A program made the translations under genes and the position numbers. The notes below the pieces were generated by a model, which saw only the letters and a program-made list of their open reading frames with translations, did no database searches and had not been told where the DNA came from. From contig NZ_LXYR01000034.1 in assembly GCF_001650195.1 (NCBI RefSeq), positions 1 to 56,001 on the forward strand: DNA of 56,001 nt. Direction: 5' to 3'. Each line of letters begins with the position of its first letter. Positions within the stretch are counted from its first letter, which is position 1. Source of the stretch: Phormidesmis priestleyi BC1401. GTDB taxonomy: Bacteria > Cyanobacteriota > Cyanobacteriia > Leptolyngbyales > Leptolyngbyaceae. This document shows positions 6,592 through 54,795 of the stretch, piece by piece.

Positions 6592-7315
6592 TGTTGGGAA
6601 ATAAAACTGGCTTCAAGACAGGGTTTTCCAATTCTTCTCCCATCTATGCGGCATCTAAATAGAAGTTCCACAAGCCTGCTGCCGTTAACATCAAACGGTC
6701 ATCGAAATCAGGCACACGATTCCTATACACCTGTGTTACGGCATTGTATCGCTTGATGCCCGCGTGGGCATGTTCACATTTGACTCGTTGAGCACTAAAT
6801 TCTCGGTTTTCTTGCTTCTGTTGTGCGCTCAATTCTTTGCCTCTCGGCTTTTTGTGCGGCAGATGAATGTTATCAAACTCATTTTGTAATCCCTGAAATC
6901 CTAAATCTCCCTCGACAGCCACTTCATCCGGGATGTTGCCCACCAGGTCTTCTTCATCCAATTGCCGCTTGTCATGGGTTTTGCCCGGTCTTGCCTTGGT
7001 TAGGAGGATCACTCGCTTTTCTCGCGTCGTTGCGGTGATGTGCTTCCGGGTATGCCGCTTCTTTTTGCCGGAATAATGCTGCTTCTGGCTTTCTGAGTCT
7101 TGGGGACGCTGCACTGGACGTTCTGTGCCGTCCAAAATCACTGCCTTGACCTCGGGAACGCCGTTCTGGAAAACCAACAGATAAAAGGGTTGTTGGGTAA
7201 TAAGCTCGAAAATTCTTGAAATCCTTTTGTAGTAAACTTTTCAGCGATTTTACGGCAGAATCCTTGAAACTCAGTCTACTCAGAGATTCCAGCAATTTTT
7301 CACTATTTCCCAACA
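6592..7315 (-). mobile_element. Deleted IS5-type insertion sequence
   Basis: Terminal inverted repeats of 12 bp (TGTTGGGAAATA at 6592-6603 and its complement at 7304-7315) bracket 724 bp carrying the C-terminal part of an IS5-family transposase. Full elements of this kind are longer and encode an N-terminal region that is absent here, so this copy has an internal deletion and cannot move by itself. No clear target duplication is visible. Confidence 0.75.
6644..7177 (-). pseudogene. IS5-family transposase, C-terminal fragment
   Basis: The open frame encodes the catalytic part of a DDE transposase of the DDE_Tnp_4 type. VILDGTERPVQRP carries the first Asp, the EGDLGFQG segment the second and the KCEHAHAGIKRY segment the Glu. 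In-frame sequence continues a few codons upstream (QQPFYLL) before meeting a stop, and the usual N-terminal helix-turn-helix part is missing. The overlapping frame 6972-7322 is in a different phase and is not the true N-terminus. I regard this as a dead copy. Confidence 0.8.
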
Positions 7316-7545
7316 GGCTCAAAGAATTGGTAGCTAGTAAGTAGAACTCAAGTTAGATAGAAAACTCTAAAACCTCTATCCCGTAGAGGTTTGTATGATT
7401 ACTTTTAAGACGTATTTCAGCACGATGTCATTAATATTGTCTCGGTGAGCTTGGTAATTATACTGACGACGTTCCTATCGCAAACAAATATGGTGCTTTA
7501 TATAGTCCTTTATTGTACTTGTTAAATTCAGCGTTTCTAAGAACC

Positions 7546-7773
7546 GTGATTGAACCGCAAAACATTGCAGAGTTGGTTCGGGAATTTCGGCTACGGTTAG
7601 GTTTAACTCAAGAGGAGTTTGCAGCCAAGCTGGGCGTTACTTTCCCGACTGTCAATCGTTGGGAGAATCGCCGTGCTAAACCGTCTCGAATGGCAATAAA
7701 GCTGATCGAGGGGCTGCTTCGGCAGACCGGTGAAAGTGCTCAAGATTTACTGACTAAGTATTTTACGAACTAA
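7546..7773 (+). CDS. Small XRE-type helix-turn-helix regulator
   Basis: A compact DNA-binding protein with the classic XRE fold: LRLGLTQEEFAAKLGVTFPTVNRWEN is the helix-turn-helix, and RRAKPSRMAIKLIEGLL the following helices. I place the start at GTG 7546, giving 76 residues beginning VIEPQNIAEL; a TTG at 7513 would add 11 residues and is possible. It lies 47 bases upstream of the tubulin-like gene, same strand, so it probably controls that gene and itself. The family is common as a transcriptional autoregulator or as the antitoxin of toxin-antitoxin pairs, but no toxin gene sits next to it. Confidence 0.75.
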   Translation: MIEPQNIAELVREFRLRLGLTQEEFAAKLGVTFPTVNRWENRRAKPSRMAIKLIEGLLRQTGESAQDLLTKYFTN

Positions 7774-7820
7774 GAATTCAGAGCTAACGCTACCCTCTCC
7801 ACCCCACTTACTGCAAATCT

Positions 7821-10800
7821 ATGTCTGATTACACTGGCATGACTCCCACCGTCATTATTGGATTGGGGGGCACTGGAAAAGAAGTCTTGCTCAAAATTCG
7901 GCGAATGATCGTGGAGACCTATGGCTCTCTAGAGAGTCTGCCGATCGTGTCTTTTCTGCACATCGACACAGAGCAGAATGCGAAAGCGACAGAGTCACAG
8001 GTTGTCCTCAAGCAAGACATCTCTTTGAGTCCGGTTGAGCAAATTTGGGCAAAAGTCGAGAATGCTAAACCCATCCTCAACAATCTTTCTTCCTACGGCT
8101 ATCTGTCTGAGTGGTTTCCGCCGCAGCTAAAAGGAACCGATTCGATTTTGGCAGGAGCAGGACAGGTGCGGGCATTAGGTAAATTCGCCTTCACAGCTAA
8201 CTATCCGCAGATTAAAACCGCTTTTCAGTACGCAAAACAGAAGATCGTAGGGCATGAGAAATTTATGCTCGATCGCTGGCAAGTCGAGCTAGACAAAGGT
8301 ATCAACATCTTTGTCGTCTGCTCCTTCTCTGGCGGCACCGGGTCTGGGATGTTTCTTGACCTTGCCTATAATCTACGCGACTGGATACCCGCTTCTGAAA
8401 TTCCGCAGAGTTCCGCTTATCTGATGCTACCGGGCGCATTCTCAGGCTTAGGCGATCGGGTGGTTGCCAATGCCTATTCCGCGTTAATGGAACTGAACCA
8501 CTACTCCCGCAACGACACCCGATTTGAGGCACAGTATAGCGTCAGTGGCTCTGATCGCATTAGCAGCAATAGCGGTCAAGACGTGCCCTTTAACTTCTGC
8601 TATCTGGTCGGCAACAGCAACGACAAGGTGACACTGCCCACAATCGGATCAGTGTTAGAGATGGTGTCTCAGAATATTTTTCTAGACTTCAGTTCTGGGT
8701 TTAGCCAATACAAAAAGCTGGTGCGCGACAATATTCGTAAACACTGGTCTAGTCCTGATCCCCTCGGTTTTCCGCAAAACTACTTGACCTTTGGGCTTTC
8801 TAGCATTCAGTTTCCGGTCGATCGGGTCCTCAACGCTTGCGCGGCTCGTCTTGCCCGTCATGTGGTTTCCTGGTGGCAAAATCCTACACCCTCGCCGTCT
8901 GCGATGCGGGACGTGATTAAGACCGAAATTCTGCCCAGCTTAAACTTGGCGGAGTCGGAAAACGATCACCAACTGCTCGACAGCATTAGCCTGGGTGACA
9001 ACCTGAAACCCTACAGCAAAGAAGTTGCCGATTGGGTTTCTAGCATTCGCAAAAAGCGCAACGATCTGAACATTCCGTTTGAGAATTTGCAGCGCTTTGT
9101 CTCGGTCGAACAAGAGAAATACGCTCCTCACTTTAACGATAGCCATCCTGACCCTAAGCATTGGAGCGACTACTTCCAAAAAATGTGGGATAACCTTCAG
9201 AACTTAATCCCACTGAAGCGTCAGGAACTGCGTCAGACTGTTTATAAATTGATGGAAGATCGCTTCCGGGGACCTAAATTTACCCGTCAGTTTCTCGAAG
9301 TGCTGCAAGAAGTCTTCACCGACTATCGCAATCAGTTTGATCAAGCGCGCCAGAAAGATTGGCTACCCAAAGAAAAGTCTACTACCAATGCCCTGCAAGC
9401 GTTGCTGAAGCAGATCGATGACCACGCCAAGCAAATGCTAATGCTCAATCGGCGGGGCGTGATTGACGAAGAGTTCAAAAATATCTTGCAAGCGCTAGAG
9501 CTAACCTATGCCTCCAAAGTGGAGGTCAAAGCCCGCACACTGGGAGTCATGCTGCTGGATGAGTTGAAGCAGGAAGTTGATTTACTACTGGCGGACCTGA
9601 CTGGTTTTGATCGCGTCCTAGAAACCCTCCAAAACAACATTGCCGAGCGAGAAAATGTCTACGTCCAGGAAACCGGAACTCTGACCGTCAACGGTATTTT
9701 GCTCTATGACGCGAAAGACATTGATCATGTTTATGGTCAAACCCTGGCAGACCGAGAAGATATCATTTGTCAAAGCGTTTCTCAGTCGATTTTGACTGCT
9801 GTAAACAGCCGACTGTTTGACTTACATCGCTTTAATCCGCTCCGCGTCAAAGATTTGCAAGAGCGTCTCCTCGTGCGGACTCAAGACGAATTCAAAGCCA
9901 GCACTCAAGTCCAAATTTCAACCGCGCAAAAGTTTCTAGAGCGCTACCAAACGCTAGAAGAACAGGAGGCACAGATTAAAACCACCTTTCAAAAAAGTGA
10001 GCCGTTCCTGCGGTTTAGCAAAGAACAAATGGGACTGGGCTGGAATGATATAGCCGAAAAACGACAGAAGTTAGTGGGCATTCAGGGCGGCACCAAGCCC
10101 ACCGATCCGGCTGTAGAGGCTGTTCTGCCCATTCTGCGAAAAGTCAGCGCTTTAGATGACAAAAACATTAAGCCGCTTAATGACCCGCATCGCATCTACT
10201 TCATCCATGAGGTTGGAGCCTTTCCCCTGCGATTGATTGAAGGCATGGAAAAGATGCGATTAATCTATCGATCGGTTTCCCAGTCAGATAAAAATCCACT
10301 TCACACCCATCAAGACAACCGCCAGTTCAAAGACTTGCTGCCCGCACCTCAAGAAGAAGCACAGGTAAAGCAAAACCTGCTGCTGGGTGTCGCGCTCGGA
10401 CTGATTACCACCACTGAAAACAAAGCGACAGGCTTTTCTGAAGTGCGAATGCAGTATCAGGACAAGCAGACCGGACGGGAAAAAATGCAGACGATCGGGG
10501 CTGATTTACGTGAAGCCGAGGAATATTTGCTCGGTGATGCCAATAATAGCGCCCGAAATATCTTGAGCGATGCGCTGAACAACATTGGCAAGAGTGTAGT
10601 GACAAAGCCTGATAAGCAAGCTATGCACCAGCGCTTGATCACTTACTTGCATCAGTTTGAAGCGACGCTGCCGCACGGCAAAGACAGCCCAGAGTATACG
10701 CTCGTTGAGACGGCGATCGACGGATACATCAAAACTCACAATCTGTTTATTGCTACAGCTACAGCAACCGTTTCCCCAACCACTACAACGCCAGTAGTTA

Positions 10801-11168
10801 ACACCAAGGTAGTCACCAGCACTAGCACTGAGAATATCGAGAAGTTTCGTAAGCTGGCACAGACTTGTTATCGTCGCGGCAACCCATCAGCAACAGAAAT
10901 GCAGCTTTTAGAACGCTTGCGCCAGAAACTCGGCATCACGCAAGAACAAGCTGATCAAATCATCGCAGAGGTAGCGCCTCAACCAACGTCGAATGAAGCG
11001 ATCGAGGAATATACCTTGATGTTTAAGGCATTCATTGGGAATGACGGCGAGATCGACTTAGAAGAGCAGGCGCAGTTGATGGATCTTCAGGAAGAACTGC
11101 ACTTGACGGAGGCGCAGATTACGGCGATCGAGACCAATGTTCGAGACGAACTGGGCTACAGCACCTAA
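7821..11168 (+). CDS. Tubulin/FtsZ-superfamily GTPase-like giant protein (Tubulin_2 type)
   Basis: The 1115-residue protein opens with a tubulin-type nucleotide-binding domain. GLGGTGKEVL near residue 14 is the first glycine loop, and SGGTGSGMFLDLA (residues 170-182, GGTGSG at 171-176) is the tubulin signature loop that contacts GTP phosphates. The long middle region (about 350-900) is helical, rich in charged residues and probably coiled coil. After a Thr-rich linker near 970-1000, two helical modules follow: LLERLRQKLGITQEQADQII, and an acidic TerB/EF-hand-like one with GNDGEIDLEEQ. Such bacterial tubulin-like proteins are mostly uncharacterised; polymer formation or partner binding gated by GTP is inference. 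It sits between an XRE regulator and a PstS-like protein in one orientation. Confidence 0.85.
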   Translation: MSDYTGMTPTVIIGLGGTGKEVLLKIRRMIVETYGSLESLPIVSFLHIDTEQNAKATESQVVLKQDISLSPVEQIWAKVENAKPILNNLSSYGYLSEWFPPQLKGTDSILAGAGQVRALGKFAFTANYPQIKTAFQYAKQKIVGHEKFMLDRWQVELDKGINIFVVCSFSGGTGSGMFLDLAYNLRDWIPASEIPQSSAYLMLPGAFSGLGDRVVANAYSALMELNHYSRNDTRFEAQYSVSGSDRISSNSGQDVPFNFCYLVGNSNDKVTLPTIGSVLEMVSQNIFLDFSSGFSQYKKLVRDNIRKHWSSPDPLGFPQNYLTFGLSSIQFPVDRVLNACAARLARHVVSWWQNPTPSPSAMRDVIKTEILPSLNLAESENDHQLLDSISLGDNLKPYSKEVADWVSSIRKKRNDLNIPFENLQRFVSVEQEKYAPHFNDSHPDPKHWSDYFQKMWDNLQNLIPLKRQELRQTVYKLMEDRFRGPKFTRQFLEVLQEVFTDYRNQFDQARQKDWLPKEKSTTNALQALLKQIDDHAKQMLMLNRRGVIDEEFKNILQALELTYASKVEVKARTLGVMLLDELKQEVDLLLADLTGFDRVLETLQNNIAERENVYVQETGTLTVNGILLYDAKDIDHVYGQTLADREDIICQSVSQSILTAVNSRLFDLHRFNPLRVKDLQERLLVRTQDEFKASTQVQISTAQKFLERYQTLEEQEAQIKTTFQKSEPFLRFSKEQMGLGWNDIAEKRQKLVGIQGGTKPTDPAVEAVLPILRKVSALDDKNIKPLNDPHRIYFIHEVGAFPLRLIEGMEKMRLIYRSVSQSDKNPLHTHQDNRQFKDLLPAPQEEAQVKQNLLLGVALGLITTTENKATGFSEVRMQYQDKQTGREKMQTIGADLREAEEYLLGDANNSARNILSDALNNIGKSVVTKPDKQAMHQRLITYLHQFEATLPHGKDSPEYTLVETAIDGYIKTHNLFIATATATVSPTTTTPVVNTKVVTSTSTENIEKFRKLAQTCYRRGNPSATEMQLLERLRQKLGITQEQADQIIAEVAPQPTSNEAIEEYTLMFKAFIGNDGEIDLEEQAQLMDLQEELHLTEAQITAIETNVRDELGYST

Positions 11169-11253
11169 GCCAACTTGTGCGTCGTGATCTCACCCCACAT
11201 CAATTCACTGCATTGCGCCCAAACAATCAAACGATTCCAACCAGTAAAGACTC

Positions 11254-12456
11254 ATGACCACCAACTTTAATTACGTCAAATGTCCGAAATGTGGACACGA
11301 TCGCAATCCGTCTACTGCTACTAAATGTGAAATCTGCGGGACTTCTTTGCGAAAGACCGGTTCACCTGTAGCGCTGATTGGAGCAGGAATCGTCACGATC
11401 GCCCTTCTAGGAGCGGGAGCCTATCTCTTAAAAGACAAAATACCAGGATTAGCACCTCAAGCAACAAAATCTCCTGATACTACAGCAGTTGCCCCAAATC
11501 AACCCACTCCATCGGCCTCCCCATCTTCAGTTGCGATCGCCCCTAACAATGTTCCACAGGTTCAGGGTGCCGTTGTTTCTACCTATCGCAGCCTTGCAGA
11601 GGTGCCGAATGTGCCTCAGGGCGTGTTCAATTACGGGGGATCGACCACATTTGCGCCATTGCGCTCTCCGGCTGTGGTCGGCACAATCAATCAAGCTCAC
11701 CCGCAATTTCAAGTGCGCTACACCGAGCCAACCACAGGCAAACCGGGTTCGGGCAGCGGCATTGAAATGCTGGTTGGCGGGCAACTGAGTTTCGCGCAAT
11801 CTTCACGGTCGCTCAAAGATGAAGAATATGCGAAGGCAAAGAATCGAGGGTTTGCTTTAGAAGAGGTTCCGGTAGCGATCGATGGCATTGCACTTTATGT
11901 CAATCCTCGACTGATTAATCAAGGGGTCAAAGGTCTGACTCTGGCTCAAGTGCGAGATATCTTCACAGGCAAGATCAACAACTGGCAAGCAGTCGGAGGA
12001 CCTAATCTCGCCATCGCTCCGTTTAGCCGCAACTTGCAATCGGGGGGCACCGTCGATTTCTTCCATGAGAACATTATGGAAAAACAACCGTTAGGTGCCA
12101 ATGTGAAAGAAGTGCGAAACACAACCGAATCTATTCGGCAAGTCGCCACAGCTGAAGGGGGCATTGGTTATGCAACCGCAGCAGAGGTGATTAATCAGCA
12201 ACTGATTCGTCTAATCCCAATTGCTAAAGAAGATGGTAGTCAGGCATTTGTGTCGCCTTGCGCTGACGCTACTTGTGCAGCCATCAACGAAAAAGGGTTT
12301 GCAGACAGCTCTTACCCGATCACCAGGCGGCTATTCGTCATTATTAAACGAGATGGTAGATTTGATGAGCAAGCGGGAGTCGCCTACGCCAATATGCTTT
12401 TAAGCGATGAGGGACAAAAGCTGGCAGAGCAGGCAGGTTTTGTGCCGATTCGTTAG
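11254..12456 (+). CDS. Zinc-ribbon, membrane-anchored PstS-like substrate-binding protein
   Basis: A 400-residue protein with an unusual build. An N-terminal zinc ribbon (CPKC at about 10-13, CEIC at about 27-30) is followed by one membrane helix (about 40-62), then a Pro/Ser/Thr-rich linker to about 110, then a PstS/phosphate-binding-type domain starting GVFNYGGSTTFAPL. The domain runs to the C-terminus with the usual PstS-like segments (GIALYVNP, IFTGKINNW, GTVDFF). Orientation predicts a cytoplasmic zinc ribbon and an external binding domain. It begins 85 bases after the tubulin-like gene, probably in the same transcript. No ABC permease or ATPase genes accompany it, so a sensing or scaffolding role is more likely than transport; this is inference. 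Confidence 0.85.
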   Translation: MTTNFNYVKCPKCGHDRNPSTATKCEICGTSLRKTGSPVALIGAGIVTIALLGAGAYLLKDKIPGLAPQATKSPDTTAVAPNQPTPSASPSSVAIAPNNVPQVQGAVVSTYRSLAEVPNVPQGVFNYGGSTTFAPLRSPAVVGTINQAHPQFQVRYTEPTTGKPGSGSGIEMLVGGQLSFAQSSRSLKDEEYAKAKNRGFALEEVPVAIDGIALYVNPRLINQGVKGLTLAQVRDIFTGKINNWQAVGGPNLAIAPFSRNLQSGGTVDFFHENIMEKQPLGANVKEVRNTTESIRQVATAEGGIGYATAAEVINQQLIRLIPIAKEDGSQAFVSPCADATCAAINEKGFADSSYPITRRLFVIIKRDGRFDEQAGVAYANMLLSDEGQKLAEQAGFVPIR

Positions 12457-17183: not shown

Positions 17184-19874
17184 TTATTCCTTTTTCAAGC
17201 TGAATTGTTGGTGTAATATGTCGCGATCTAATTTGGCAATATCTAACATTGAGTCAAGCGCTACCACTACATAGCCATCAATATTGAGAATCCGTTGCAT
17301 GATGATTAAAAGGCTGCGAACGCGCGCAATCGGATAACCAATGATTCGTGACAGTGCATTCAAGGTAATCTTGCCGCCGGAGTCATCCATTGCTAAGAGT
17401 GCTCTAGCTAGTACATCGTCTCCTGGAAGCGTTCGTCCTGCTACTTTCTTGCGTGATTTGTAGATGGGCGAAGCTAGTAAATCAATGATCCACTGCGAGG
17501 GTTGCTGAGTAGAGTGTGGCACCTCGAACTCTACTTTTACTGAGAATAAGGGTCCAAAATCAGCTTGGATAATCGGTTGAGGCGACACCATCAATGGGGA
17601 AACATTTTCTATGAATGCGATCTGTTCCTCCCACCAGAGCGGCGTATCAACGGGTGCCTCAATCCATCCGGCAGGATAGGTAGTGGACGAGCAAAGAACA
17701 GCAATCGGGACAATCATTTCTTGAGGCGAAATCCCACCATGATATCCATTGTTTTTAGACCGATACCGAAGTCGCTCAGTCCAGGGGGCAATGAGAGAGT
17801 CTAAGTTAGGCAGTGCCACTCGTGAACCTTTAATCCGCAGTTCCCCCTCTTTAGGGTGACCATCATCTAACCGCCATCTTTCGCCACCCTCAGAAGATTT
17901 CTTGACCATCTTGTCATCGTCCATTTGATGATCAAAAACATGCCCATGATCGCTGAGTAGAATGACGAGGCGATTAGAGGCTTTGGCTTCGTAAAGCAGG
18001 ATCGATAGTACCTTAATTTCGTCTTGTGACCATTGAACATCAAGTTGATCACCCTTCGCTAGATAATCATCGATCGCGTTGATCACAACTCCAACAATCC
18101 GGTTTTGAGGAACCTTGACTGCGTTTCTCACCACATCTGCTAACACTCCATCTTGCTCACGGAGCGCATCCTTATGAAACAAAATAGGTGGAGAACCGTG
18201 GCGACAGTGTGCCAGAAGGGATGGTAGTGCTGCAAATCCTTTTTTCTCGTCAGGCGACTTACCCTGTCTTAAGTGCCCACAGAGCAAGCTGGTACGAGAG
18301 ACTTCTGTAGTAGAGGGGATAGCTGCTAGACCTGCGGTAACGGCTGATGTTTGTTCGTTCTGACACAGGGAAACCCAACGTCGTTCGGCTGTGATGTCTG
18401 CTACCAGTTCGCGACAAGCTGCCATACTCATCCCGTCCATAACAATGACAAGCACTGGTGCGTGGGATGCCAGAGGCGCAACGATCGCTTCTAAAATGTG
18501 TTCCACAGGAAGCACGGCTTTTCCAGTAGAACCCACTTCTACCCAGTTTTGTAGTAAGGTAGCAAACTGAAAAGCTTGCTGTTCCCGGAGCGCAGTAACT
18601 TGGTTAAAGAGGATGGCATAGGCTTCAGATAACTCTCGAATTGACTCACTCCATCGCAGTGAAAGCCTTGCCCAATCGACAAATCCCCCTTCAGTTTGAT
18701 AATTCATCATGGCTTCGGCCAAAGATTCAGTGGGCTTTGGCATTTTTTGACTAGCCATCCACTCCATCAAGCGAATTGCCATAGCAATACGGTTTAGTCG
18801 GCGACATTCTGAGGGAGCTTTGGCTCGGTCATGATTGAGAACAGATTCATGAGCCATGTGAATTGGCTGGATGAAATCTGTTTTTTTTGTCTTCAGAGTG
18901 TCTCCCAGACATTTTCCTAAGGTAGCTAGCCGTTGTTCAAAGCCTGTAGGAGAGGTATCGCTCAAATAAGCAAACGATTCTGCACCTATTTCCAGCAAGA
19001 TTTTATCTGTACGCTGTAGGAGCTGATGCTTTTGGTCAGAATTAAATTGCTGCAAACAGGCTGTTGCAACCTGTCCCCACCGAAATACTGAATGGGAATC
19101 AATTACCGTGCCACCGAGATAACGTTCCTCAAGTTTGCCGATCGCTTTGTCCAGTCTCCCATTCACATCGGGATGTAAAAGCACCTCAAGCGCTAATCCA
19201 ACGGGTAGCGCATCTGGGCGCTCACTACTCAAAACACAATGAAGGACAGTTCTAGTTGCTGAACCCGCTGTGGATGTCAACCAATCAACCGCAGACTTGC
19301 GAAATACATCGGGTGCTGCTTTCAATTTTGCTACATTGTCTGCATCAGTTGACCAGTTAAGAATTGCCAGGAGATCGGGGCGGTGATCCGTCAACCCAAT
19401 TCCCTGGTTTGTGAGAATGAACCAAACGGTTTCGGCATCAAGAAATCCTCCACTAACTGACGGATAACCACCGGAGGGAACCCAATCCATCAAGTAGTCG
19501 GCAATCCAAGGAGCTTGCATGAGCCGCGGATCGATTGAATTTGCCCGAAACAACGTTTTGATAATTTGCCAACTGTCAATCAGATGCAGTTTTCGTCTCG
19601 CTAATCGCAGCAGAACATCATCGCCCAAATCAGCTTCATCAAGACTTGTCAGAAGCACTGTAATGGTTGGATCGCTGTGAGTTTCACGAAGCGCAAGCCG
19701 CATGGCTAGAGGCGAGTCGCACTGCTCAATTCGGTAGGTTTCTGAGCCATCGTGTTTAAGGCGATCGCCTGTCCAACGTCCTTGAGCGCGAATTCCAATG
19801 ATTTGAGCGTCAGGAGTTTTCTGCCGGATGGCAGCTATTTGAGCTTTGATTTGGCTAAAGGTAGGTGCTGTCAC
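17184..19874 (-). CDS. pglZ: BREX type 2 alkaline-phosphatase-fold protein PglZ
   Basis: The 896-residue protein belongs to the PglZ family of the Pgl/BREX phage-defence systems. The PglZ domain of the alkaline phosphatase superfamily begins at about residue 473: VLVIVMDGMS holds metal-ligand Asp480, and LLSDHGHVFDH holds Asp642 and His643. The long N-terminal region (1-450) is helical, and the C-terminal 150 residues form a separate domain. PglZ is the one component found in all BREX types and is needed for protection; its phosphatase or nuclease substrate is still debated. It is the last gene of the operon and overlaps pglY by four bases (ATGA), indicating translational coupling. Confidence 0.92.
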   Translation of the reverse strand: MTAPTFSQIKAQIAAIRQKTPDAQIIGIRAQGRWTGDRLKHDGSETYRIEQCDSPLAMRLALRETHSDPTITVLLTSLDEADLGDDVLLRLARRKLHLIDSWQIIKTLFRANSIDPRLMQAPWIADYLMDWVPSGGYPSVSGGFLDAETVWFILTNQGIGLTDHRPDLLAILNWSTDADNVAKLKAAPDVFRKSAVDWLTSTAGSATRTVLHCVLSSERPDALPVGLALEVLLHPDVNGRLDKAIGKLEERYLGGTVIDSHSVFRWGQVATACLQQFNSDQKHQLLQRTDKILLEIGAESFAYLSDTSPTGFEQRLATLGKCLGDTLKTKKTDFIQPIHMAHESVLNHDRAKAPSECRRLNRIAMAIRLMEWMASQKMPKPTESLAEAMMNYQTEGGFVDWARLSLRWSESIRELSEAYAILFNQVTALREQQAFQFATLLQNWVEVGSTGKAVLPVEHILEAIVAPLASHAPVLVIVMDGMSMAACRELVADITAERRWVSLCQNEQTSAVTAGLAAIPSTTEVSRTSLLCGHLRQGKSPDEKKGFAALPSLLAHCRHGSPPILFHKDALREQDGVLADVVRNAVKVPQNRIVGVVINAIDDYLAKGDQLDVQWSQDEIKVLSILLYEAKASNRLVILLSDHGHVFDHQMDDDKMVKKSSEGGERWRLDDGHPKEGELRIKGSRVALPNLDSLIAPWTERLRYRSKNNGYHGGISPQEMIVPIAVLCSSTTYPAGWIEAPVDTPLWWEEQIAFIENVSPLMVSPQPIIQADFGPLFSVKVEFEVPHSTQQPSQWIIDLLASPIYKSRKKVAGRTLPGDDVLARALLAMDDSGGKITLNALSRIIGYPIARVRSLLIIMQRILNIDGYVVVALDSMLDIAKLDRDILHQQFSLKKE

Positions 19875-22800
19875 GACTCAGTACTACTTTCCTCAACAAC
19901 CCAACTGATGCTCAAACGAAGCGTTTGGTCTGCTTTTAAGTTTTGCGTCAGTTCTGACAGCAGACCCTGAGCGCTATTGATTTCCAGGTTTTCCTTTGTA
20001 CCTTGACTTATGACTTGTTTACCACGCTTTTGAATGAGACTTGGCGTTAAGGTTTGGACAGGTTCAGGTGTTGATCTGCCTTCACCCATAGAGTTTTTTT
20101 CTATGGGAATGGAAACAGATGGAGTTGGAATAGGTTTTACGGTTAGTTCCCGTGCTTTTGTCTGGGCAGTTCTCAGGGTTGAACTCAAGGAGATGACATA
20201 TTCATCGCTGCACAAGGCTTGTCTAACCGTTTTGCAGATTTTGTCTGCTGACTGTTTGCGATCGTCAGCCAACGTCGCAATAAACTCAAAAACTCCCCAG
20301 TCTGTCTGTTCTAAAATAGTAGTCAGCATGGATGCTTTACTGAGGCATTCTTTCATTGCAGCTTCGGTTGTCGCGATCGTTGCCTCAGCTAAAACTTTCA
20401 CAACGCTGTTCGCTTGATTGGAACCAATCTGCTCGACTAGCACAAGGGTTGCAGTTGCCGTTTTGAGGCGGTCGCTCTCAGTGTTTAATTCAAACCGATC
20501 CAGCGCGGTGCTGAGAGTTTCAGCATAAGTGTGAATAGCATTGCGACAGGAGAGCGATCGCTGCGTCACTTTAGACTCGATATCTGCGACATTATTGGCT
20601 TTCCGCAAAGGAGAAATCTGAACTCCAAAAATGCTGTCTGCTCGCTCAACTGCCGTTTGCCACTGTAACTCATCTGGCAATTTCTGCTCTCGCAGTTCGC
20701 ATTCACTCCAGATCTCCTTCAGCGTCGGTTCAACAGGGGTATTGTGCCGAAAGAAGGTGCGGTTGGTCTGTGCAGCAAACGTCAGGATGATCAGATTTTG
20801 CACTTCTTTGGGTAAGCCCATCGCTTTGGGTTGATCGATCCATTCCCGTAACTGACTGACAGTGATAGGGCCGCCTTCGGACTTGCGGATAAAGTTCGTT
20901 TTCCAATGCTGATCGAGAACCAGGTGAGTGGCATCGTGTCCCATTTCCGCAAGTCGCAATGGATTTGCAATTTGCCGCAGTAACAATCGGCTGGGTTTCT
21001 CAACGGGAACGCGATGATCGGAAGCTAGGGCTGCTGCATTAAGGATTTGATAGACCTTCTCTAAGTCATTCAGCTTGATAGTTTTGCCTTCATCAATTGG
21101 AAAAATTGGAGCGGCGGGAAAATCAAATATGAGGGCTTGCTCTAGAAGATTGAGCATTGCTCCTTCTAGGCGAGCGGCAACGGGGGGCTGTAAATCAAAG
21201 CCAGGATAAAGCGAGACAAACCGTTCATTCAGTTCTAGAGGATGGGTCGTGTCTAGAGAATTGGGTGAGAGGGCTTCTAATCCGTAGGCAGCATCCAGAT
21301 GGTTTTGGACTTGCTGCCGCAGCATACTGCACTGGTTCTCTAACAAGGATTTTGCAGCTTGTCGGTCTTGAGGGGAGAGGTGATTTGCGTACTGGGAAAA
21401 GCGATCGCCCGTCAGAATGTGTTCTAGAGTCACCAGTGAGCCGAGATCTTTTTGGGCTTCAGCACTGAAAAAGGCAGGCACCCAGCAAAGCGTTTTTGCA
21501 CCATCGGGAAAGGATGCTTTAAACAAATCAAGGCGGCTCAAATCGTCACGGGGACTATGACCCTCTTCAAAGGGAAAATCAATAATTAGTTTCCATCGCT
21601 CACTGTCATTCTCTAACGAGGCATCCGGCAGTTCTCGGATGTTTTTGAACAGAACAACGCATGATCGCTTGGTGCCTCGCCAGTCAAAATTACGGTATTG
21701 CTCGAACTCGTCCTCGCCTTCAACCTTGAGTTGTTGAAAGACCATTTGCCGCAGCAAGCGGATGCGGTTGCCTCGGTTATCAACTTCTCCTTCGGCTTGT
21801 TTGAAAATCCGTTCTGTATCAACGCCAGAGAGTTGAATCGAGATGGAAGGATTTTGTTCTTCGCTGATGCGGATTTCGCCAACGCTCGCGGCCCAAGTTT
21901 TGCAAAGGGTTAAGACCATAGAGCCTTCTCGACCCGCGATCGGAGTTTTGATCGTGCCATGATTGAGCGCTGCTAGACGTTCGGCGTTTAATGCCCGCAG
22001 GGATTCGACTTCTGGCACTAAAGCAGAGAGCAGTAAAGTTTTAATCAGACGATCGTGATTGCGGAATGCGGTCAATCGCGGGTCTTGGGGAGATAATGTT
22101 TCTAATTCTTCTCGGCGGATGCCCTGTTGCTTTTCAAGTAAAGGCAGCAATTTCTGGTGATAGAGGCGTTTTGCATTATTGAAATGGATTGCCATCTCTG
22201 GACTAAAGGCTTCATCGCCATGAGCAATGACATCAAATAAATCCCCGACCGGAACGATATCGCCTAGCGCCAGAGTTTCTTGCTGATCGACTAGAAGTTG
22301 CATCATGACTTTGAGGGCGGTGCGCTCCCGTTGAAGCACACTGGAGACGGCAATCAGCGTTTGTACTAAGGCAGGACTAAACGGGTAAACCTTGCGGAAC
22401 ATCTCCCGATCGCCTTCGCTGGTCAGGAGCGTCGTCATGACCGTGTCGCGTATTTTTGTTTGCTCGAAAGCGGTATTGAGTTCTAATCGAGCGGCAGGGG
22501 TTTTACATTTGAGAATGCGTTCGTGGGCGATCGCGGGCAGGTTACGATCTTCTAAGTTAATGCGATCGAATCGTCCTTCCCAATGTTTGAGGGCATCGCT
22601 AAAGTTGAGCCGTTCTGCACCGGGAACTGCGTCACCAATCAGTTCGCTCAGGTCGCGCTGACGGGCGACAAAGCTGATGATCGGCACGGGTCGATCGGGC
22701 GTTTGGGCTTCGACTAATTTTGCAAGTTTCTGCCCTTCTTGGTGAACAAACTTCAAATCGGTGGCACGGCTAGCCAGCCAAAGAATCAATTCATCCAGAA

Positions 22801-23644
22801 ACAGAATGACGGCATCGTAGCCGAGGCTTTTAGCGTGTTGACTGAGAACCGATAAGCCCTGATCGAGAGAAACGTATTTTTCTTGATTGCCATCTGAGAT
22901 ATTTTGATACGATGCAAAAAAACTTTTTACTAACGCTCCAATTAAGCGTTGCCGCTCCTGAAGTTTCACAGTTTCATCGTGGGTTAGCTGCTTTCTCTCA
23001 TTCTGGTCAGAGGGCATTGGAGGAGTGAGCACAGCAGCCTCAAACCGCTCCGCATCCCAACCATTTTCTAATTCTCCCCAGCCGCCCTCGCTTTGCTCTT
23101 CAGCCTGGTTGAGTTTGGTAAAGAAGGCTTCATCTCCCATACCAACACGAATTACTTGGGCATCGCGAAAAAGTCCTTCTCCTAAATAGACACCAGGAAT
23201 TGAGGCATTGGGATGAGTTCGGCGTATAAAGTCGGCATAACCGCCCAGAATCCCTGATTCCATATCGTGGGCACCGATCATGTGATAAGGCACCAATAGA
23301 AAGCGTTTACCCTCAATCCATTCGTTGTGTTTGGTGATGACAGGGGCAAGTTTTTTGAGTTTACGGGCTTCTAAGTTGCCTTGCAGGATGAGGTGCAAGA
23401 CTGCCATGAAGTGACTTTTACCGCTACCAAAGCTGCCGTGTAGGTAGGTGGCTTTGCTGCTGTTGGCTTGTAGGGAACTGCGGATAAAAATCAGGGCAGT
23501 ATCAAAGCATTCTTCGAGTTCTGGGGTGACGACGTAGTCGCGGAGGGTTTCGGTTGCACGAATTACGCCTTCGGTGAGTCGCAGGACAAAATCGCCCTTC
23601 TGGACTCGTTCGGGGATATGAATCAGATCTTTGATCAGCGTCAT
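19871..23644 (-). CDS. pglY: BREX type 2 P-loop ATPase PglY
   Basis: The 1257-residue ATPase corresponds to PglY of type 2 systems and is analogous to BrxC of type 1. A Walker A motif lies near the N-terminus (HGSFGSGKSHF, Lys76), and VILFLDELILWL near residue 273 is the Walker B strand. The rest is a very long helical body typical of DUF6079 proteins, probably forming a complex with PglZ and PglX. The start MTLIKDLIHIPERVQKGDFVL agrees with the conserved N-terminus of the family. It ends overlapping pglZ and starts 53 bases after an inserted Uma2 gene. Confidence 0.92.
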   Translation of the reverse strand: MTLIKDLIHIPERVQKGDFVLRLTEGVIRATETLRDYVVTPELEECFDTALIFIRSSLQANSSKATYLHGSFGSGKSHFMAVLHLILQGNLEARKLKKLAPVITKHNEWIEGKRFLLVPYHMIGAHDMESGILGGYADFIRRTHPNASIPGVYLGEGLFRDAQVIRVGMGDEAFFTKLNQAEEQSEGGWGELENGWDAERFEAAVLTPPMPSDQNERKQLTHDETVKLQERQRLIGALVKSFFASYQNISDGNQEKYVSLDQGLSVLSQHAKSLGYDAVILFLDELILWLASRATDLKFVHQEGQKLAKLVEAQTPDRPVPIISFVARQRDLSELIGDAVPGAERLNFSDALKHWEGRFDRINLEDRNLPAIAHERILKCKTPAARLELNTAFEQTKIRDTVMTTLLTSEGDREMFRKVYPFSPALVQTLIAVSSVLQRERTALKVMMQLLVDQQETLALGDIVPVGDLFDVIAHGDEAFSPEMAIHFNNAKRLYHQKLLPLLEKQQGIRREELETLSPQDPRLTAFRNHDRLIKTLLLSALVPEVESLRALNAERLAALNHGTIKTPIAGREGSMVLTLCKTWAASVGEIRISEEQNPSISIQLSGVDTERIFKQAEGEVDNRGNRIRLLRQMVFQQLKVEGEDEFEQYRNFDWRGTKRSCVVLFKNIRELPDASLENDSERWKLIIDFPFEEGHSPRDDLSRLDLFKASFPDGAKTLCWVPAFFSAEAQKDLGSLVTLEHILTGDRFSQYANHLSPQDRQAAKSLLENQCSMLRQQVQNHLDAAYGLEALSPNSLDTTHPLELNERFVSLYPGFDLQPPVAARLEGAMLNLLEQALIFDFPAAPIFPIDEGKTIKLNDLEKVYQILNAAALASDHRVPVEKPSRLLLRQIANPLRLAEMGHDATHLVLDQHWKTNFIRKSEGGPITVSQLREWIDQPKAMGLPKEVQNLIILTFAAQTNRTFFRHNTPVEPTLKEIWSECELREQKLPDELQWQTAVERADSIFGVQISPLRKANNVADIESKVTQRSLSCRNAIHTYAETLSTALDRFELNTESDRLKTATATLVLVEQIGSNQANSVVKVLAEATIATTEAAMKECLSKASMLTTILEQTDWGVFEFIATLADDRKQSADKICKTVRQALCSDEYVISLSSTLRTAQTKARELTVKPIPTPSVSIPIEKNSMGEGRSTPEPVQTLTPSLIQKRGKQVISQGTKENLEINSAQGLLSELTQNLKADQTLRLSISWVVEESSTES

Positions 23645-23697
23645 GGAGGAGCCAAGGCGATTAAGTTACCTTATGTTATAACCTGAGTTGCTGTAGG

Positions 23698-24309
23698 CTA
23701 GGAAATTAGAAGGTTGAAGCCAGGTAAAACGTCTTCACCAGAGAGGGTAGCTGGATAGGGCAGCGTCTCGACGGGTCGATTGAGTCGGTAGATTTTGACT
23801 TGAAGATCTTGAGGGTTAATTAGCCATCCGAGACGTAGGCCGCTTTGCAGATATTCCTGCATTTTCTCTTGCAGTGGGATGAGTCGTTTAGCGCTTTGCG
23901 CAACTCCCCAGGAACCGGTGCGTGAACGCAGTTCGATCACAAAGTCGGGGCAGAGGGGCGGAAATTTTTCTCGTTCTGTTTGGGTCAACGATTCCCAACG
24001 ATCGCGCTTTACCCAAGCCACATCGGGAGAGCGGCTGCTATCGCACACTGCGTGACCGCCGCCACCCGGTAATTTGAAGACGGTGGAAGAGCTAAAGACA
24101 ACTCCAAGCTCGGTCTGCTCATTCCAGCCCACAACTTTACTGATTAAGCTGGCTTCCTGGATGCCGCTTTCACCTCCGATCGGGGTCATGATGATTAACT
24201 CTCCTTTGGGCGATCGCTCCATTGCGACATCGCGGTTTGCCATACACAGTTGGTAGAACTGCTCATGAGTAAGTTGAATAATGGGTGATAAATCAAGGAC
24301 AGTTGCCAT
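23698..24309 (-). CDS. Uma2 family endonuclease (between HepT and PglY)
   Basis: A 203-residue protein of the Uma2 family, a PD-(D/E)XK-like nuclease fold very common in cyanobacteria, of poorly known role. Motifs: GELIIMTPIGGESG after the first helix, SPDVAWVKR carrying the active-site Asp, and CPDFVIELRS carrying the Glu. The C-terminus GLRLGWLINPQDLQVKIYR is the family's usual last strand pair. I start at ATG 24309 (MATVLDLSP) because the 22 residues of the longer frame lack family character. It sits between core defence genes in the same orientation, so it is co-transcribed. Confidence 0.88.
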   Translation of the reverse strand: MATVLDLSPIIQLTHEQFYQLCMANRDVAMERSPKGELIIMTPIGGESGIQEASLISKVVGWNEQTELGVVFSSSTVFKLPGGGGHAVCDSSRSPDVAWVKRDRWESLTQTEREKFPPLCPDFVIELRSRTGSWGVAQSAKRLIPLQEKMQEYLQSGLRLGWLINPQDLQVKIYRLNRPVETLPYPATLSGEDVLPGFNLLIS

Positions 24310-24387
24310 ATTTCTTACCGCCGAATCGTTCAGATAGATAGACAAAACCAAGACGTGATTTGAGAATGAACTCAAAGAACAGAGGAG

Positions 24388-24741
24388 CTATTGATGATTT
24401 GCAATATCGTTGAGAATTTGAACAATGACGGGTCGGAGGGTGGATAAATCTTGTTGAACGGTGTCCCACACGACCTCAAGATCTACACCAAAATATCCAT
24501 GAATTAGTTTATCTCGCATTCCTGTAAAGCCTCTCCAAGGAATTTCGGGGTACTGGTCGCGCAAGGGTTGCGGGATGTTTTTAGCTGCTTCTCCGATTAC
24601 TTCAATTGCCCGAATAATTGCAAACACTGTCTTTTGATCGTTTTGGAATTCGGTAAAGGTCAAGCCACCTAAAAAATTTTCGGCAAGGTCGATCGTCTCC
24701 AAAATATCTTGAAGAGAATCTCTAATATCGCGCTGAGTCAC
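24388..24741 (-). CDS. hepT: HEPN toxin HepT (DUF86)
   Basis: A 117-residue, all-helical HEPN-domain RNase. The active motif Rx4HxY is present as RDKLIHGY (Arg76, His81, Tyr83). In characterised HepT/MntA pairs the nucleotidyltransferase antitoxin adds AMP to this Tyr and silences the RNase; that is known for the family and inferred here. The gene overlaps mntA by four bases (ATGA), the standard layout. It lies within the Pgl operon, suggesting either addiction of the island or an abortive back-up if the defence is blocked. Confidence 0.9.
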
Positions 24742-25037
24742 AGGTAAACGACCTCTCGTAAAATTTGTTCACCAATGTAGGGTTTTAAGCCTTTCTTCAT
24801 GACTAAATCGACTTTCAGCTCTAACAGATCGCTCAAATGATTTTCTAATTCACAAAATGTGAGTAAGCCAAACCGAAATCCTGGCTCAAATTCTACTAGC
24901 ACATCAATATCGCTTTCTTGGGTTTGTTCTCCACGCACATAGGAGCCAAAAACACCAAGCTGGGTTACATGATACTTCTGCTGAATGAGCGGTTTAGCGC
25001 GTTCTAGTTGTTGCTTGATTTCTGCTAAAGATTTCAT
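24738..25037 (-). CDS. mntA: MntA-type nucleotidyltransferase antitoxin
   Basis: A minimal 99-residue nucleotidyltransferase. [20 protein letters not shown] contains the GSxxRG nucleotide loop (31-36) and the two metal-binding Asp (43 and 45), so it should be active. It is the antitoxin partner of the HEPN RNase encoded next. Its start lies 32 bases downstream of the pglX stop, same strand. Confidence 0.92.
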
Positions 25038-25069
25038 CGGTTTCTCTCCTCTTAACTGTCGGTACTAAG

Positions 25070-28000
25070 TCATCGACGGCGATTGGTTCGGGTGGGAGGT
25101 TGCCACGATCGTACTTCGTCTAGGGTTTTGTCGATTTGGCGGGCTTCGTCTTGAATGAAGGATTCAAAGTAGTCGCCCATTGATAGGTCGTAAACGGGAT
25201 CGAGGTCGTTGTGCCATTGTTTGAGCCAGGGGAGGAGTTGGAGGAGGTTGGCAAGTAGGGGAGGCAAGCGGGGATCTTCGCGTCCGCCGAGGCATTCTTG
25301 GACTTCGACAAAGTAGGCGCTGATGGCTTGGGCGAGTTGGAGGTGGTTGTAACCTGCCCAGGCGATCGTCATGGTTCCGTCTTCGGCGTTGCAGTGGGGG
25401 AAGCTGACCCAGCGTTCTTTGGGGACATCGAGTTTGCCGCGCAGTTTCCAGTAGTGGGGTTTTTGAAAGTCGGTGTTGGTGTATTTGGGTGGGACGGGGA
25501 TGGTGCCAATTTCGTGCTGGGTGACTTGTTTTAGGATGGCTTGGGGCAGGTAGTCGGGATGGTCTTTGTCGAGTTTGGTACGATCGCTAATTTTGTCTTC
25601 TAATCGTTGCAGGTTCCAGGTATGTTCCCATTCGGATCGTTTGCGAAGTCCGGTGGGCTTGTAGCGAAGGATGGGCAAGAGGGGGACGCTTTCGGCTTCG
25701 ACGAGTTCGGTGACAAGTTTTTGGACGTTGAAGGTGGAGTCGTTGCGGTAGAGTTCGCCGACTTGCAGGAATTCGGGGTCTTGTCGGGCGAGGTCTGCGA
25801 GTTGGGCGATCGACACCAGAGATATCTCAATTTTGGCGGTGGGTTTGCCGTCGTCGTTCATGCGTCCGTCGAAGTCGAAGTAGGTTTCGAGGCGATCGAA
25901 CAACCATCCTCTTAAAGCGCGTTCTAGCTGAGAGTCCCAGGGTTCGGTGTTCCAACGACGTTTGTATTCGGGTTGTTCGATGAGGGCAATGTTACGATCG
26001 CGCTCAATAATTTCAATACGTCGCTGTACGAGTTGTTTGTAATCGTCTGACCATTCGATCGGGAATTTGGTAATGGGTGTGGAGTGGTGGCGATCGAACC
26101 AGGTGGTTTGCAGTTCGCCTGCTGCCATTTTGCGAGCCATGACGATCTCGAAGGCGCGTTGACCGAGAGCGATCGTAGGCGGATCGGAACAAGTGAGATC
26201 TTCGGTAAGGAGACTATAGAGTTGATAGCACTGCCAATCAAGTTCTTCTTGAAGAGCGATCATTTGGTCGATCGTATGTTGCCAAACTGAGCGATCGGCA
26301 TTCAGATTTTTTGCAGGTAATAGATCACTTAACTTTGTGGCTAGTTGATCAAGCTTCCTCGACAATTCAACCGGACGTAATTCTGGCAGGGGAAATAGTT
26401 TTAATCCGGTGCTGGCATACTCATATGTATTGAACTCAACCTCTCCCGTTGTCCGTGCCCCTTTTTGGTCAGTTGAATCACCTTTATTATGAAAAATCTG
26501 TTTCATCCAAAAGCAAGCAAGTGAACTATTCAATAGTCCAAGTAGAACTAAATAATCACCTTCAGTTGCATCACTAGGAAGCATAACGATGGGAGCATGA
26601 CGATTGAAAGCGTTAGTACCTTGATCAAGGGCAAAATGATTATGGGTAGCAACAAACGCTTGAGCAATCCGAAATTTTGCTCTGTATCGTTGATGAATAT
26701 AGCGAACCCAAGTGTAGTAGGATAAGTTCTCTTCTTCAATAGTCTTACCGCCAATGAGAACGCGAGATTGGAGGTGAGATCGGTTTCTCCACCAAGCTTT
26801 TATGCAATTTGTGATACCGTCAACCTGAAACAAATGTCCGTTACTTGTGTACGGAATCGCAATAATTTCATCGGGTGAGATAGCCCAATTACGGATAACA
26901 TCTCCAGGAACAAAGTTTCTGATTAAACTCTTTTCCCAATTTTTTCGACAGGCAGTAGCACGATCACTCACAAAAACTTCGTCTAGTCCAGCCCAGCTTG
27001 CAACACCAATTTCATCAACGACATCATTAAGTAAGCTTGTTGATGATTGATCTAAAAATTCTTTGAGTTCTGATGCGCCACCGCCACCAATTGACCAGGG
27101 ATGCTTACAGAAACTCTCCCGCATTGAATCTGTAACGCTAATGAATTCATTCCGTGTCCCAGATTGATCAATGTAATTTACGATAGCCAACCAAACTAAT
27201 CCCTGGGATGGGTCATTTGGTGAACTTGGTTCTCCTCGAATTCCCATTACAGTACGGATTTTACTTGAAATTGGTTTACGATTTCGCCCAAATAAAATTA
27301 CTGTTGGTGTTCCATGTCCTGGAATATAAGCGCCACTCGTATCAATAACGTGAGTCAGATCGATATTTGGGATAAAGTTTTCAATTAATTTTTTCCCGAA
27401 CTCCCGTTTCATAAAATTGTTTGCAGTAATCTGCCCAGTGAAACCACCCACAACAGCAAGTGAATAAATTCGCTGCATAAACGGCACTGCTAACGAATAC
27501 TGCCGATAGCAAGTTTCTTTATATAGGTTCCGATATGCCACATTCAACGCTCGATCTTTTGGCGTGATGTAAGGCGGATTTGCCACAACCGCGTGATAGT
27601 GTCCTGGAATCAAAGTTCGATTCAGTTCTGCAACATCTTCACTCTTGTAGTGATGATCCTTGGGTGACACACCCTCAAAAGCTAACTGCGTCCCTTCCCC
27701 ATGCAGCAGCGAATCTCCACACACCACCTGAATCTTAAACGCAGGCGCATCCCGCAACCGCTCAATTCCACTCGATCTCATCGCCGCTAACAACAACCGA
27801 AACCGAGCGATCGCCACCGCATACGGATTAATATCAACCCCGTGAATGCTATCGAGCGATCGCTGCGCTAACACCCGCACATTCGTCCCCGGCTCCTTCT
27901 TTAACCAGCGATCGAGCAACCGAGCAAACGCACCCAGCAAAAAATGCCCACTGCCACAAGCCGGATCAATCATCCGAAAATCGCTCAAACCAAACTCAGC

Positions 28001-28672: not shown

Positions 28673-28690
28673 AATTCCTACTTCTAAAAA

Positions 28691-29047
28691 TTAACCTGCA
28701 ATTGCTTCACTCGTGCCAAAGTCAGTAAACTGACGCACATAAGGCTCATGGAACGCCAAAATGATGTCTTGTTTGGGCACCCCCATTTCGACTAGCCGAT
28801 TGGCAATTCCTTCTTCTGTCCCATCATGCTGAACCCAGATCTTTCCGTCTTTAATATCAAGGTGCAAAATGCAGCCAAAATCACGCTTATTTCCACGCCA
28901 ACCGACATAGAGCAGTTGATAGTGATCGTGTTCCGCATCAAAAATCGTCTGCACCTCATACTCTTGAGCATTTCGCTGCATCGAAGCCCGATCGCGCCGC
29001 TCTGATAAAAGATGTCGAATATACTGCCGGTATTGTTCTACAGCCAT
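28691..29047 (-). CDS. xisI: XisI family protein
   Basis: A 118-residue member of the XisI family, first known as an fdxN-element excision controlling factor in Anabaena. Segments typical of it: MAVEQYRQYIRHLL, VQTIFDAEHDHYQLLYVGW, IWVQHDGTEEGIANRL and DIILAFHEPYVRQFTDFG at the C-terminus. ATG 29047 is the family start; the eight residues before it in the open frame are not conserved in character. Its usual partner XisH (a PD-(D/E)XK-like nuclease) is replaced here by a Uma2 nuclease gene ending two bases upstream. Confidence 0.92.
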   Translation of the reverse strand: MAVEQYRQYIRHLLSERRDRASMQRNAQEYEVQTIFDAEHDHYQLLYVGWRGNKRDFGCILHLDIKDGKIWVQHDGTEEGIANRLVEMGVPKQDIILAFHEPYVRQFTDFGTSEAIAG

Positions 29048-29049
29048 AC

Positions 29050-29730: not shown

Positions 29731-29780
29731 CGCAAATTCGACCTCAATCGCCTTCACTGAACATTGTACGCGCCATTCTC

Positions 29781-41273: not shown

Positions 41274-41292
41274 ACTTAAAATCCCTCCTGCC

Positions 41293-43251: not shown

Positions 43252-43254
43252 ATC

Positions 43255-49672: not shown

Positions 49673-49739
49673 TCAAAAATGGGATTTTGTTGAACTTCTC
49701 CCCCTTTTGGAGGGATTTTGAGCGTTTGCAGATACGCCC
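49613..49739. mobile_element. MITE-like inverted repeat overlapping the 3' end of the replication gene
   Basis: The left end GGGCTATCTGCAAACTCCG and the right end, read on the other strand, GGGCGTATCTGCAAACGC are nearly the same, with further complementary stretches inside. The element is about 127 bp and non-coding apart from supplying the last residues and stop of the replication protein reading frame. Confidence 0.65.
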
Positions 49740-54541: not shown

Positions 54542-54795
54542 AGGGGTACTGAAATCTTCAGAACTTAGTACCCAATTGTGCCTTAAAAGCTTTGTAAGAA
54601 GTAGATTAAAGCGTGAGTGCATCGTTAGTTCATCACTTAGATAAAAAGTGCTGAACCTATGCTACCATGCGTTCATGAAAAGAGCAGCTAGAGAACAGTT
54701 CACGAACACGGAACTTTGCGCCTAGTTTTGCCTCGAACAGCTTTCAACCTAGACAGCCCCATGCTTTGACCTACTTTTTAGGAGAAATTAGCTCC

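Follow-up and report, generated by a model that had tools for sequence, protein, structure and literature searches.

A candidate envelope-facing signaling pair of a tubulin-family protein and a zinc-ribbon membrane receptor in cyanobacteria

What could bring a tubulin-like GTPase together with a membrane protein that resembles a phosphate-binding protein? The question is raised by a locus of Phormidesmis priestleyi BC1401, on contig NZ_LXYR01000034.1, which was analyzed in its entirety (56,001 bases; hereafter the window). An XRE regulator, a Tubulin_2 protein, and a protein joining a zinc ribbon, a transmembrane (TM) helix, and a PBP_like_2 domain (hereafter the receptor) are encoded in that order on the + strand, separated by 47 and 85 bases, as a first-pass annotation of this DNA had described. 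We propose, with a probability of about 0.55, that this locus encodes an envelope-facing cytoskeletal signaling pair, in which a tubulin GTPase scaffold works with a membrane receptor bearing an outer sensor. The proposal builds on the domains and their fold matches, the gene layout, the co-occurrence of the two genes whether linked or unlinked, and the finding that relatives combine a similar inner part with different outer domains. The features concerned are as follows; genes were called with a simple open reading frame (ORF) script, so small genes may be miscalled.

7546..7773 (+), XRE/HTH_3 regulator gene (Pfam HTH_3, E=1.1e-12; open frame from TTG 7513)
7821..11168 (+), Tubulin_2/FtsZl1-family protein, 1115 aa (PF13809, E=2e-94)
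7839..8711 (+), tubulin-fold GTPase domain, residues 7-297 (low-confidence AlphaFold2 [AF2] model aligned to CetZ and tubulins)
7860..7877 (+), T1 loop GLGGTG (sequence; GxGGxG)
8328..8348 (+), T4 loop SGGTGSG (sequence; GGTGSG)
9270..9674 (+), long helices, residues 484-618, a probable coiled coil (AF2 model secondary structure)
10824..11153 (+), TerB-like C-terminal helical module, residues 1002-1111 (PF05099, from family members)
11254..12456 (+), zinc-ribbon-TM-PBP_like_2 receptor, 400 aa (PF12849, E=8e-33)
11281..11337 (+), zinc ribbon CPKC...CEIC, residues 10-28 (sequence)
11374..11430 (+), transmembrane helix, residues 41-59 (hydropathy 2.12 over 19 residues; model helix 39-58)
11617..12453 (+), type II substrate-binding domain, residues 122-400, presumably periplasmic (model, structure alignment)

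The tubulin protein, the receptor, and the regulator

The PF13809 match of the 1115-aa protein spans residues 11-349 and scores 317 bits against a cut-off of 27. The protein is a member of the FtsZl1 family of Makarova and Koonin 2010 (PMC2875224), termed FtsZ-like/Tubulin_2 in PMC9871819 (statements drawn from papers cited by PMC number refer to the passages covered). It follows the published FtsZl1 pattern of an N-terminal FtsZ-like domain, a coiled coil, and a helical C-terminus (PMC2875224), including the GGTGSG-type loop and the length of the coiled coil. In all 7 sequences aligned (the window and six far relatives), the T1 motif GxGGxG and the T4 motif GGTGSG are conserved without exception, which agrees with the tubulin G loops already noted for this protein. 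In the AF2 model, helices run over residues 484-537 and 544-618 and the C-terminus is helical, while residues 7-297 superimpose on CetZ (3zid) with a Z score of 14.4 and a root-mean-square deviation (rmsd) of 5.0 over 187 residues; tubulins align to the same residues at Z scores of about 13-14. These matches and the retained T1 and T4 loops suggest that GTP-binding geometry, whose absence would have spoken against the initial idea, may well be present in this low-confidence model. The TerB-like label given earlier to the C-terminus is plausible for the family, because 7 of 10 aligned C-terminal sequences match TerB (PF05099) at E<=1 (best 3.7e-5), but the window copy alone falls under the cut-off (E=0.047; 14.4 bits, cut-off 24.4). 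Sequence searches of the PDB gave a single chance-like match for the tubulin profile (E=0.36) and 17 weak matches for the C-terminal profile (best E=0.031), several of them EF-hand proteins. No clear membrane segment is evident in the tubulin protein (hydropathy peak 1.36), which makes a membrane partner reasonable.

All three parts ascribed to the receptor in the first-pass annotation were recovered: the CPKC...CEIC ribbon, a membrane helix at about residues 41-59, and a PstS-like domain. Nine aligned copies, carrying two kinds of outer domain, share the four ribbon cysteines as well as P11, K12, N18, A22, E26, I27, and L32. In the receptor model (mean pLDDT 60), residues 122-400 superimpose on PstS-type 4q8r with a Z score of 24.4 and an rmsd of 2.5 over 235 residues, and the model aligns to Synechocystis Sll0540 (9l8j) with a Z score of 23.5. 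Around the helix, 14 of 20 proteins have a higher net charge on the N-terminal side, 4 the same charge on both sides, and 2 a lower one, a bias that favors a cytoplasmic N-terminus for the 14, though not for the window receptor. If the ribbon does lie inside, the cytoplasmic part of the receptor would consist essentially of the ribbon. Whole-receptor matches at E<=1e-8 occur in 320 of the 388 genomes of the class that make up our sample, ordinary PstS proteins presumably included; seven close relatives without the zinc ribbon were read and have a short N-terminal hydrophobic segment instead.

The fold raises the possibility that the receptor serves an importer as its binding protein, with the tubulin protein incidental to the importer or organizing it spatially. 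The type II binding fold is indeed shared with PstS and Sll0540 (35% identity in the structural alignment to the latter), and in one relative (locus L221) genes for an NMT1 binding protein, a permease, and an ATP-binding cassette (ABC) ATPase follow the receptor gene directly, so that a transporter link is possible there. Unlike PstS, however, the window receptor carries an N-terminal zinc ribbon and helix, and it scores 152.5 bits against TIGR02136, below the cut-off of 206.6. Of its phosphate-contact loops, GSGSG is retained, and GSGT, where it departs from PstS, reads SGGT (partly deleted in L220). No ABC transporter gene, Pst genes included, was seen among the flanking ORFs, all of which were read and part of which was scanned with domain models. 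The genome has two PstC (phosphate permease) genes scoring over the cut-off, both on other contigs (C6 and C47), and none of the 10 PstC matches listed falls on the window contig. The kind of outer domain, moreover, differs among the partners of one tubulin subclade (see below). A plain phosphate importer subunit was rejected on the basis of the TIGR02136 score and the location of the PstC genes; the anchor, the lack of visible ABC genes nearby, and the outer-domain exchange likewise support the original view that the protein is unlikely to import phosphate. A broader role as a transport accessory strikes us as quite improbable.

The XRE regulator is the least constant of the three genes. An in-frame GTG does occur at 7546, where the gene had been placed, but its open frame begins earlier, at TTG 7513. 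Among 147 gene sets (E<=0.01), an XRE gene lies directly upstream of the tubulin gene in four loci (the window, L090, L221, and L226), and it was therefore rejected as a constant part and is taken to be optional. The initial reading of the three genes as a functional module is partly supported. The genome also contains a second XRE copy (G000:C73:7662-7898, L218) that is 57% identical and has one stop codon inside the matched frame.

Co-occurrence and linkage of the two genes

PF13809 occurs in 112 of the 388 genomes. We defined subclade A as tubulin proteins with at least 55% identity to that of the window, using the fetched neighborhoods of strong PF13809 matches, a few of which were classed from short loci; matches above E ~1e-10 were fetched in part, and by their scores cannot be whole subclade-A proteins. 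One genome (G343) was assigned to subclade A from a 55-residue piece at a contig end. For the receptor, a zinc-ribbon-TM profile built from nine stretches detected 48 genes in 36 genomes at E<=1.1e-12, a threshold picked after viewing the list, and 46 of the 48 are in genomes with the tubulin gene. Twelve weaker rows, up to 9e-6, fall in 11 genomes (G069, G068, G221, G288, G148, G129, G044, G335, G104, G030, and G085).

At this threshold, 36 genomes contain a subclade-A tubulin protein, 36 the zinc-ribbon-TM type, 34 both, and 350 neither (Fisher p=5e-44, kinship not corrected). Widening the limit to E<=1e-5 raises the number of genomes with the zinc-ribbon type to 44, with the same 34 holding the tubulin gene. 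In family f1, of which 42 genomes were sampled, subclade-A tubulin is confined to the window genome and G011, and the same two hold the receptor type. Named carriers of the tubulin gene include Pantanalinema, Nodosilinea, Nostoc sp. FACHB-892, Xenococcus, Gloeomargarita, and metagenome-assembled genomes of Gloeobacterales.

In 20 of the 36 tubulin genomes, the receptor gene follows the tubulin gene immediately and in the same orientation. By this classification, which was made by hand, it is near in two (G306 and G262), undecidable at a contig edge in two (G286 and G318), elsewhere in ten, and absent in two. In five genomes both genes are on one contig but 0.34, 0.77, 0.86, 1.24, and 2.10 Mb apart, the second of these distances presuming a closed circle (2.28 Mb otherwise). 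Genes that are unlinked yet jointly kept are the best evidence available here, and on this basis we argue for a shared function of tubulin protein and receptor. Rare adjacency of the two genes in other genomes would have spoken against the initial idea, but 34 of 36 tubulin genomes contain both, as direct neighbors in 20. We rejected the possibility of chance neighbors, since the two genes co-occur both linked and unlinked.

Exchange of the outer domain and a possible mechanism

Behind a similar ribbon and helix, Pfam matches reveal several kinds of outer domain. PBP_like_2 is found in the window, L079, L085, L226, and L201; the type I domain Peripla_BP_6 in L090, L091, L093, L096, L099, L195, and L189; NMT1 with OmpA in L221, L232, and L209; and OmpA alone in L198, from a genome without the tubulin gene. 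A further kind is a propeller:

L202 7644-8801 (+), zinc-ribbon-TM-WD40 propeller protein (Pfam)

The L202 gene and that of L209 (ribbon E=2.1e-6, under the threshold) are second zinc-ribbon genes that do not adjoin the tubulin gene. Such a second gene is present in six genomes of family f16, of which the L202 copy was the one scanned, and several zinc-ribbon receptors per cell occur in genomes of families f14 and f16 (relatives of Gloeobacter and Gloeomargarita). Parsimony on the tubulin tree requires 4 changes among three receptor types. The tree was made by maximum likelihood with a quick search and has 37 rows, 31 of them scored, with 11 of 34 inner branches weak; 27 loci lie outside it (fragments, second copies of included genomes, and two further Nodosilinea loci, L225 and L235). 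Receptors unlinked to a tubulin gene were paired with the tubulin protein of the same genome, and the receptor type scored for f16 genomes is that of the PBP_like_2 gene rather than of the second gene. One row, L234, carries the label "outB" despite being a member of subclade A (66%); it is uncounted in the changes and makes the outgroup look split.

An inner half that stays the same while the outer half is exchanged suggests that this cytoskeleton family takes outside signals or attachment points. We propose that the FtsZl1-type protein would act as a cytoplasmic GTP-binding scaffold through its N-terminal tubulin domain, long helices, and helical, TerB-like C-terminus. The zinc ribbon of the receptor, if cytoplasmic, would dock this protein on the inner membrane, with one helix crossing to an outer substrate-binding domain that could close on a small ligand; in relatives with OmpA, the outer part may also hold peptidoglycan. 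The ligand state outside would then set how the scaffold inside assembles or which GTP state it adopts, and a change in the scaffold could locally remodel or stabilize the envelope. In some lineages, the XRE protein probably regulates the operon. A more general and more tentative suggestion, which we consider somewhat less probable than its converse, is that a whole class of single-pass receptors has a tubulin-family GTPase as its cytoplasmic output, with one ribbon head for docking, interchangeable periplasmic sensors, and external ligands that steer the scaffold directly.

The main rival to this signaling pair is a static tether, in which the receptor merely anchors the tubulin scaffold to membrane and wall, its outer domain serving as a structural or wall-binding head that works without ligand switching. 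OmpA is a peptidoglycan binder, and the exchangeable outer domains include OmpA (L221, L232, and L209) and the WD40 propeller of L202. An OmpA/MotB-like membrane partner, read from sequence, also occurs in the operons of more distant relatives (group C, below), and neither the window copy (where it is changed) nor L220 (where part of it is missing) has an intact phosphate-type GSGT loop. Most of the outer domains, however, have small-ligand folds (type I, type II PstS-like, NMT1, and phosphonate-type), for which a mere anchor would have no need, and we judge the static tether unlikely, while giving it more weight than any other alternative.

Several observations weigh against the signaling pair itself. 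The AF2 model of the tubulin protein is poor (mean pLDDT 65, pTM 0.37, 15 sequences), Foldseek returned 0 of 194 matches at E<=0.001 (best TubZ, E=0.012), and a T7 catalytic loop was not identified in the window protein; T6-H7 likewise could not be placed by Makarova and Koonin (PMC2875224). The co-occurrence would be expected of any two genes with a pathway in common, and kinship inflates it. It also has exceptions: two tubulin genomes are without the receptor (G121, 83% complete; G101, 95% complete, with its tubulin gene cut at a contig edge), and the zinc-ribbon type occurs without tubulin in G208 and G247. Ribbon residues beyond the cysteines vary elsewhere (CSKC in L221 and L226, CPQC in f16, CEHC in L197), and charge does not settle the topology, the window receptor being one of the two in 20 with the lower N-side charge. 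WD40 outer domains fit a small-ligand sensor poorly, and the transporter genes behind the L221 receptor count against the proposal as well.

How does this pair compare with systems already described? The published partners of FtsZl1 proteins are vWA proteins, GTPases, kinases, and OmpA proteins, with vWA in the majority of operons; cyanobacteria form a clade within FtsZl1, and membrane partners were expected (PMC2875224). The window locus differs from these operons in having no vWA gene next door and a zinc-ribbon-TM-substrate-binding protein with an interchangeable outer domain as partner. PBPB-OmpA proteins of PspA/Snf7 operons (PMC11237479) likewise combine a substrate-binding domain with a tie to a membrane-remodeling system, and OmpA is present in some relatives of the receptor; they are associated with PspA/Snf7, AAA+ ATPases, and ABC genes, whereas here the cytoplasmic partner is of the tubulin family and the inner part is a zinc ribbon. 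GAP1-N2 double-GTPase systems (PMC7159879) resemble the window in bringing tubulin-domain, zinc-ribbon, and membrane proteins into one neighborhood, but they fuse zinc ribbons to TRAFAC GTPases, whereas the window protein fuses its zinc ribbon to a substrate-binding domain. Among the literature matches listed, we recognized no description joining FtsZl1/Tubulin_2 with a zinc-ribbon-TM-binding-protein receptor, though the receptor may stand unnamed among the associated families in the additional files of PMC2875224. A biomineralization paper that mentions a tubulin-like FtsZ is unrelated. The new element seems to be the receptor partner, the tubulin family itself having been known since 2010.

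FtsZl1 proteins are widespread in bacteria and some archaea and are a little-known family with no demonstrated function in the literature covered. A partner that is found repeatedly and that combines a defined inner part with a ligand-binding head would offer a handle on the ligand, the binding site, and the envelope process. If the outer domain does control the tubulin protein, bacteria would possess a cytoskeleton under receptor control, a mode of regulation generally regarded as eukaryotic. The design, with similar inner and exchanged outer parts, is modular.

Genomic setting and more distant FtsZl1 loci

The window is an entire contig, with no overlap between its ends, and contains two further groups of genes that bear on alternative explanations:

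17184-33992 (-), BREX-2 set PglZ, PglY, PglX, and PglW (PglY below its cut-off)
36805-38497 (+), ParA-like and ParB genes
49673-53086 (-), CyRepA1 plasmid replication protein

The CyRepA1 match (303 bits, cut-off 200), the ParB gene, and the ParA-like gene (below its own cut-off) indicate that the contig probably represents all or part of a plasmid, and that the module is therefore probably plasmid-borne here. These genes could also favor a role in plasmid segregation, with the tubulin protein as a TubZ-like partition filament and the XRE protein as its DNA adaptor; TubZ is the best Foldseek match, and the XRE gene adjoins the tubulin gene. On the other hand, the contig has its own ParA/ParB, several relatives sit on contigs of 2.8-6.1 Mb, the XRE gene accompanies the tubulin gene in four loci only, and the recurrent partner is a membrane protein, so that we consider this the least probable of the alternatives, with very little chance of being correct. 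A tblastn search of plasmids with the tubulin protein gave 9 records, all below 60% identity, one of them covering at least 80% of the query. At 54766-55671 (+), the contig also encodes an actin-like protein, perhaps ParM-like (ALP_N, E=1.5e-4, below cut-off).

The BREX-2 genes, ~5-22 kb downstream of the module, point instead to conflict or defense, in which the tubulin protein would be an anti-phage effector or scaffold comparable with the GTPase systems proposed in PMC7159879, where tubulin genes are described in GAP1-N2 systems. A further link of this kind is seen in the Meiothermus plasmid pMtWR-220 (L216), where an FtsZl1 gene stands in a row with DUF1156, Swt1-HEPN, vWA, and BrxL genes in a defense-like operon. 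Yet no PADLOC model matches the receptor at E<=0.1, and the sole match of the tubulin protein is weak (PDC-S48, E=0.0019) and covers the TerB-like part. The recurrent clustered neighbors, judged by reading their sequences rather than by a PADLOC scan, did not look like defense genes, and scans of viral contigs gave two distant PstS-type matches and no tubulin relative. We regard a defense function as improbable, if less so than a transport accessory. A phage origin was rejected, none of 66 pattern stretches in viral contigs being a tubulin relative.

The BREX-2 region includes further ORFs at 23698-24375 and 28691-29071, plus an overlapping one at 29050-29952. At 38595-49275 (-) lie a DrmD-like SNF2 helicase (below cut-off) and then large proteins, one with a sacsin-type ATP-binding domain, which are possible further defense genes. 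The flanking genes scanned encode peroxidases, GST, an acetyltransferase, a deaminase, and a transposase, and none contains a vWA domain. Just upstream of the XRE gene, at 6644-7322 (-), a DDE_Tnp_4 transposase ORF and a second ORF overlapping its start are perhaps a single transposase gene split over two frames. Promoter- and terminator-like sites are fewer than the shuffle mean, and repeats at the module amount to nothing beyond short pairs.

More distant FtsZl1 loci have other neighbors, which in some cyanobacterial loci include membrane-anchored binding proteins; we count these in favor of the proposed pair. In group C (25-36% identity to the window tubulin protein), neighbor clustering recovered a vWA-like gene in 28 loci, mostly at -1, a long coiled-coil membrane protein in 27, mostly at +1, and an OmpA/MotB-like protein in 24, mostly at +2; going by these labels, which are readings of sequences, this layout is the published style of FtsZl1 operon. 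Genes read as vWA-like also occur in 9 loci beyond group C. Group B comprises 10 loci of a type I binding-protein cluster, with a divergent Cys/His-rich head, a helix, and a type I binding domain within the operon or close to it (L071 alone was scanned for domains). Across such loci, FtsZl1 proteins that neighbor binding-domain proteins are about 26-42% identical to that of the window. They include L242, where the neighboring binding-domain protein was checked by a domain scan, and L190, where a PBP fragment lies directly upstream of a tubulin fragment (up to 42% identity). A related combination is carried by a plasmid:

L214 11653-13509 (-), Cylindrospermopsis curvispora plasmid protein with phosphonate-type binding and SNase (staphylococcal-nuclease) domains

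This protein has a Cys/His-rich head and a hydrophobic segment ahead of its binding domain, and its gene adjoins an FtsZl1 gene (29.5%) on the opposite strand. On plasmid p2 of Azospirillum sp. TSA2s (L215), an FtsZl1 gene adjoins two caspase-family and several OmpA-family genes.

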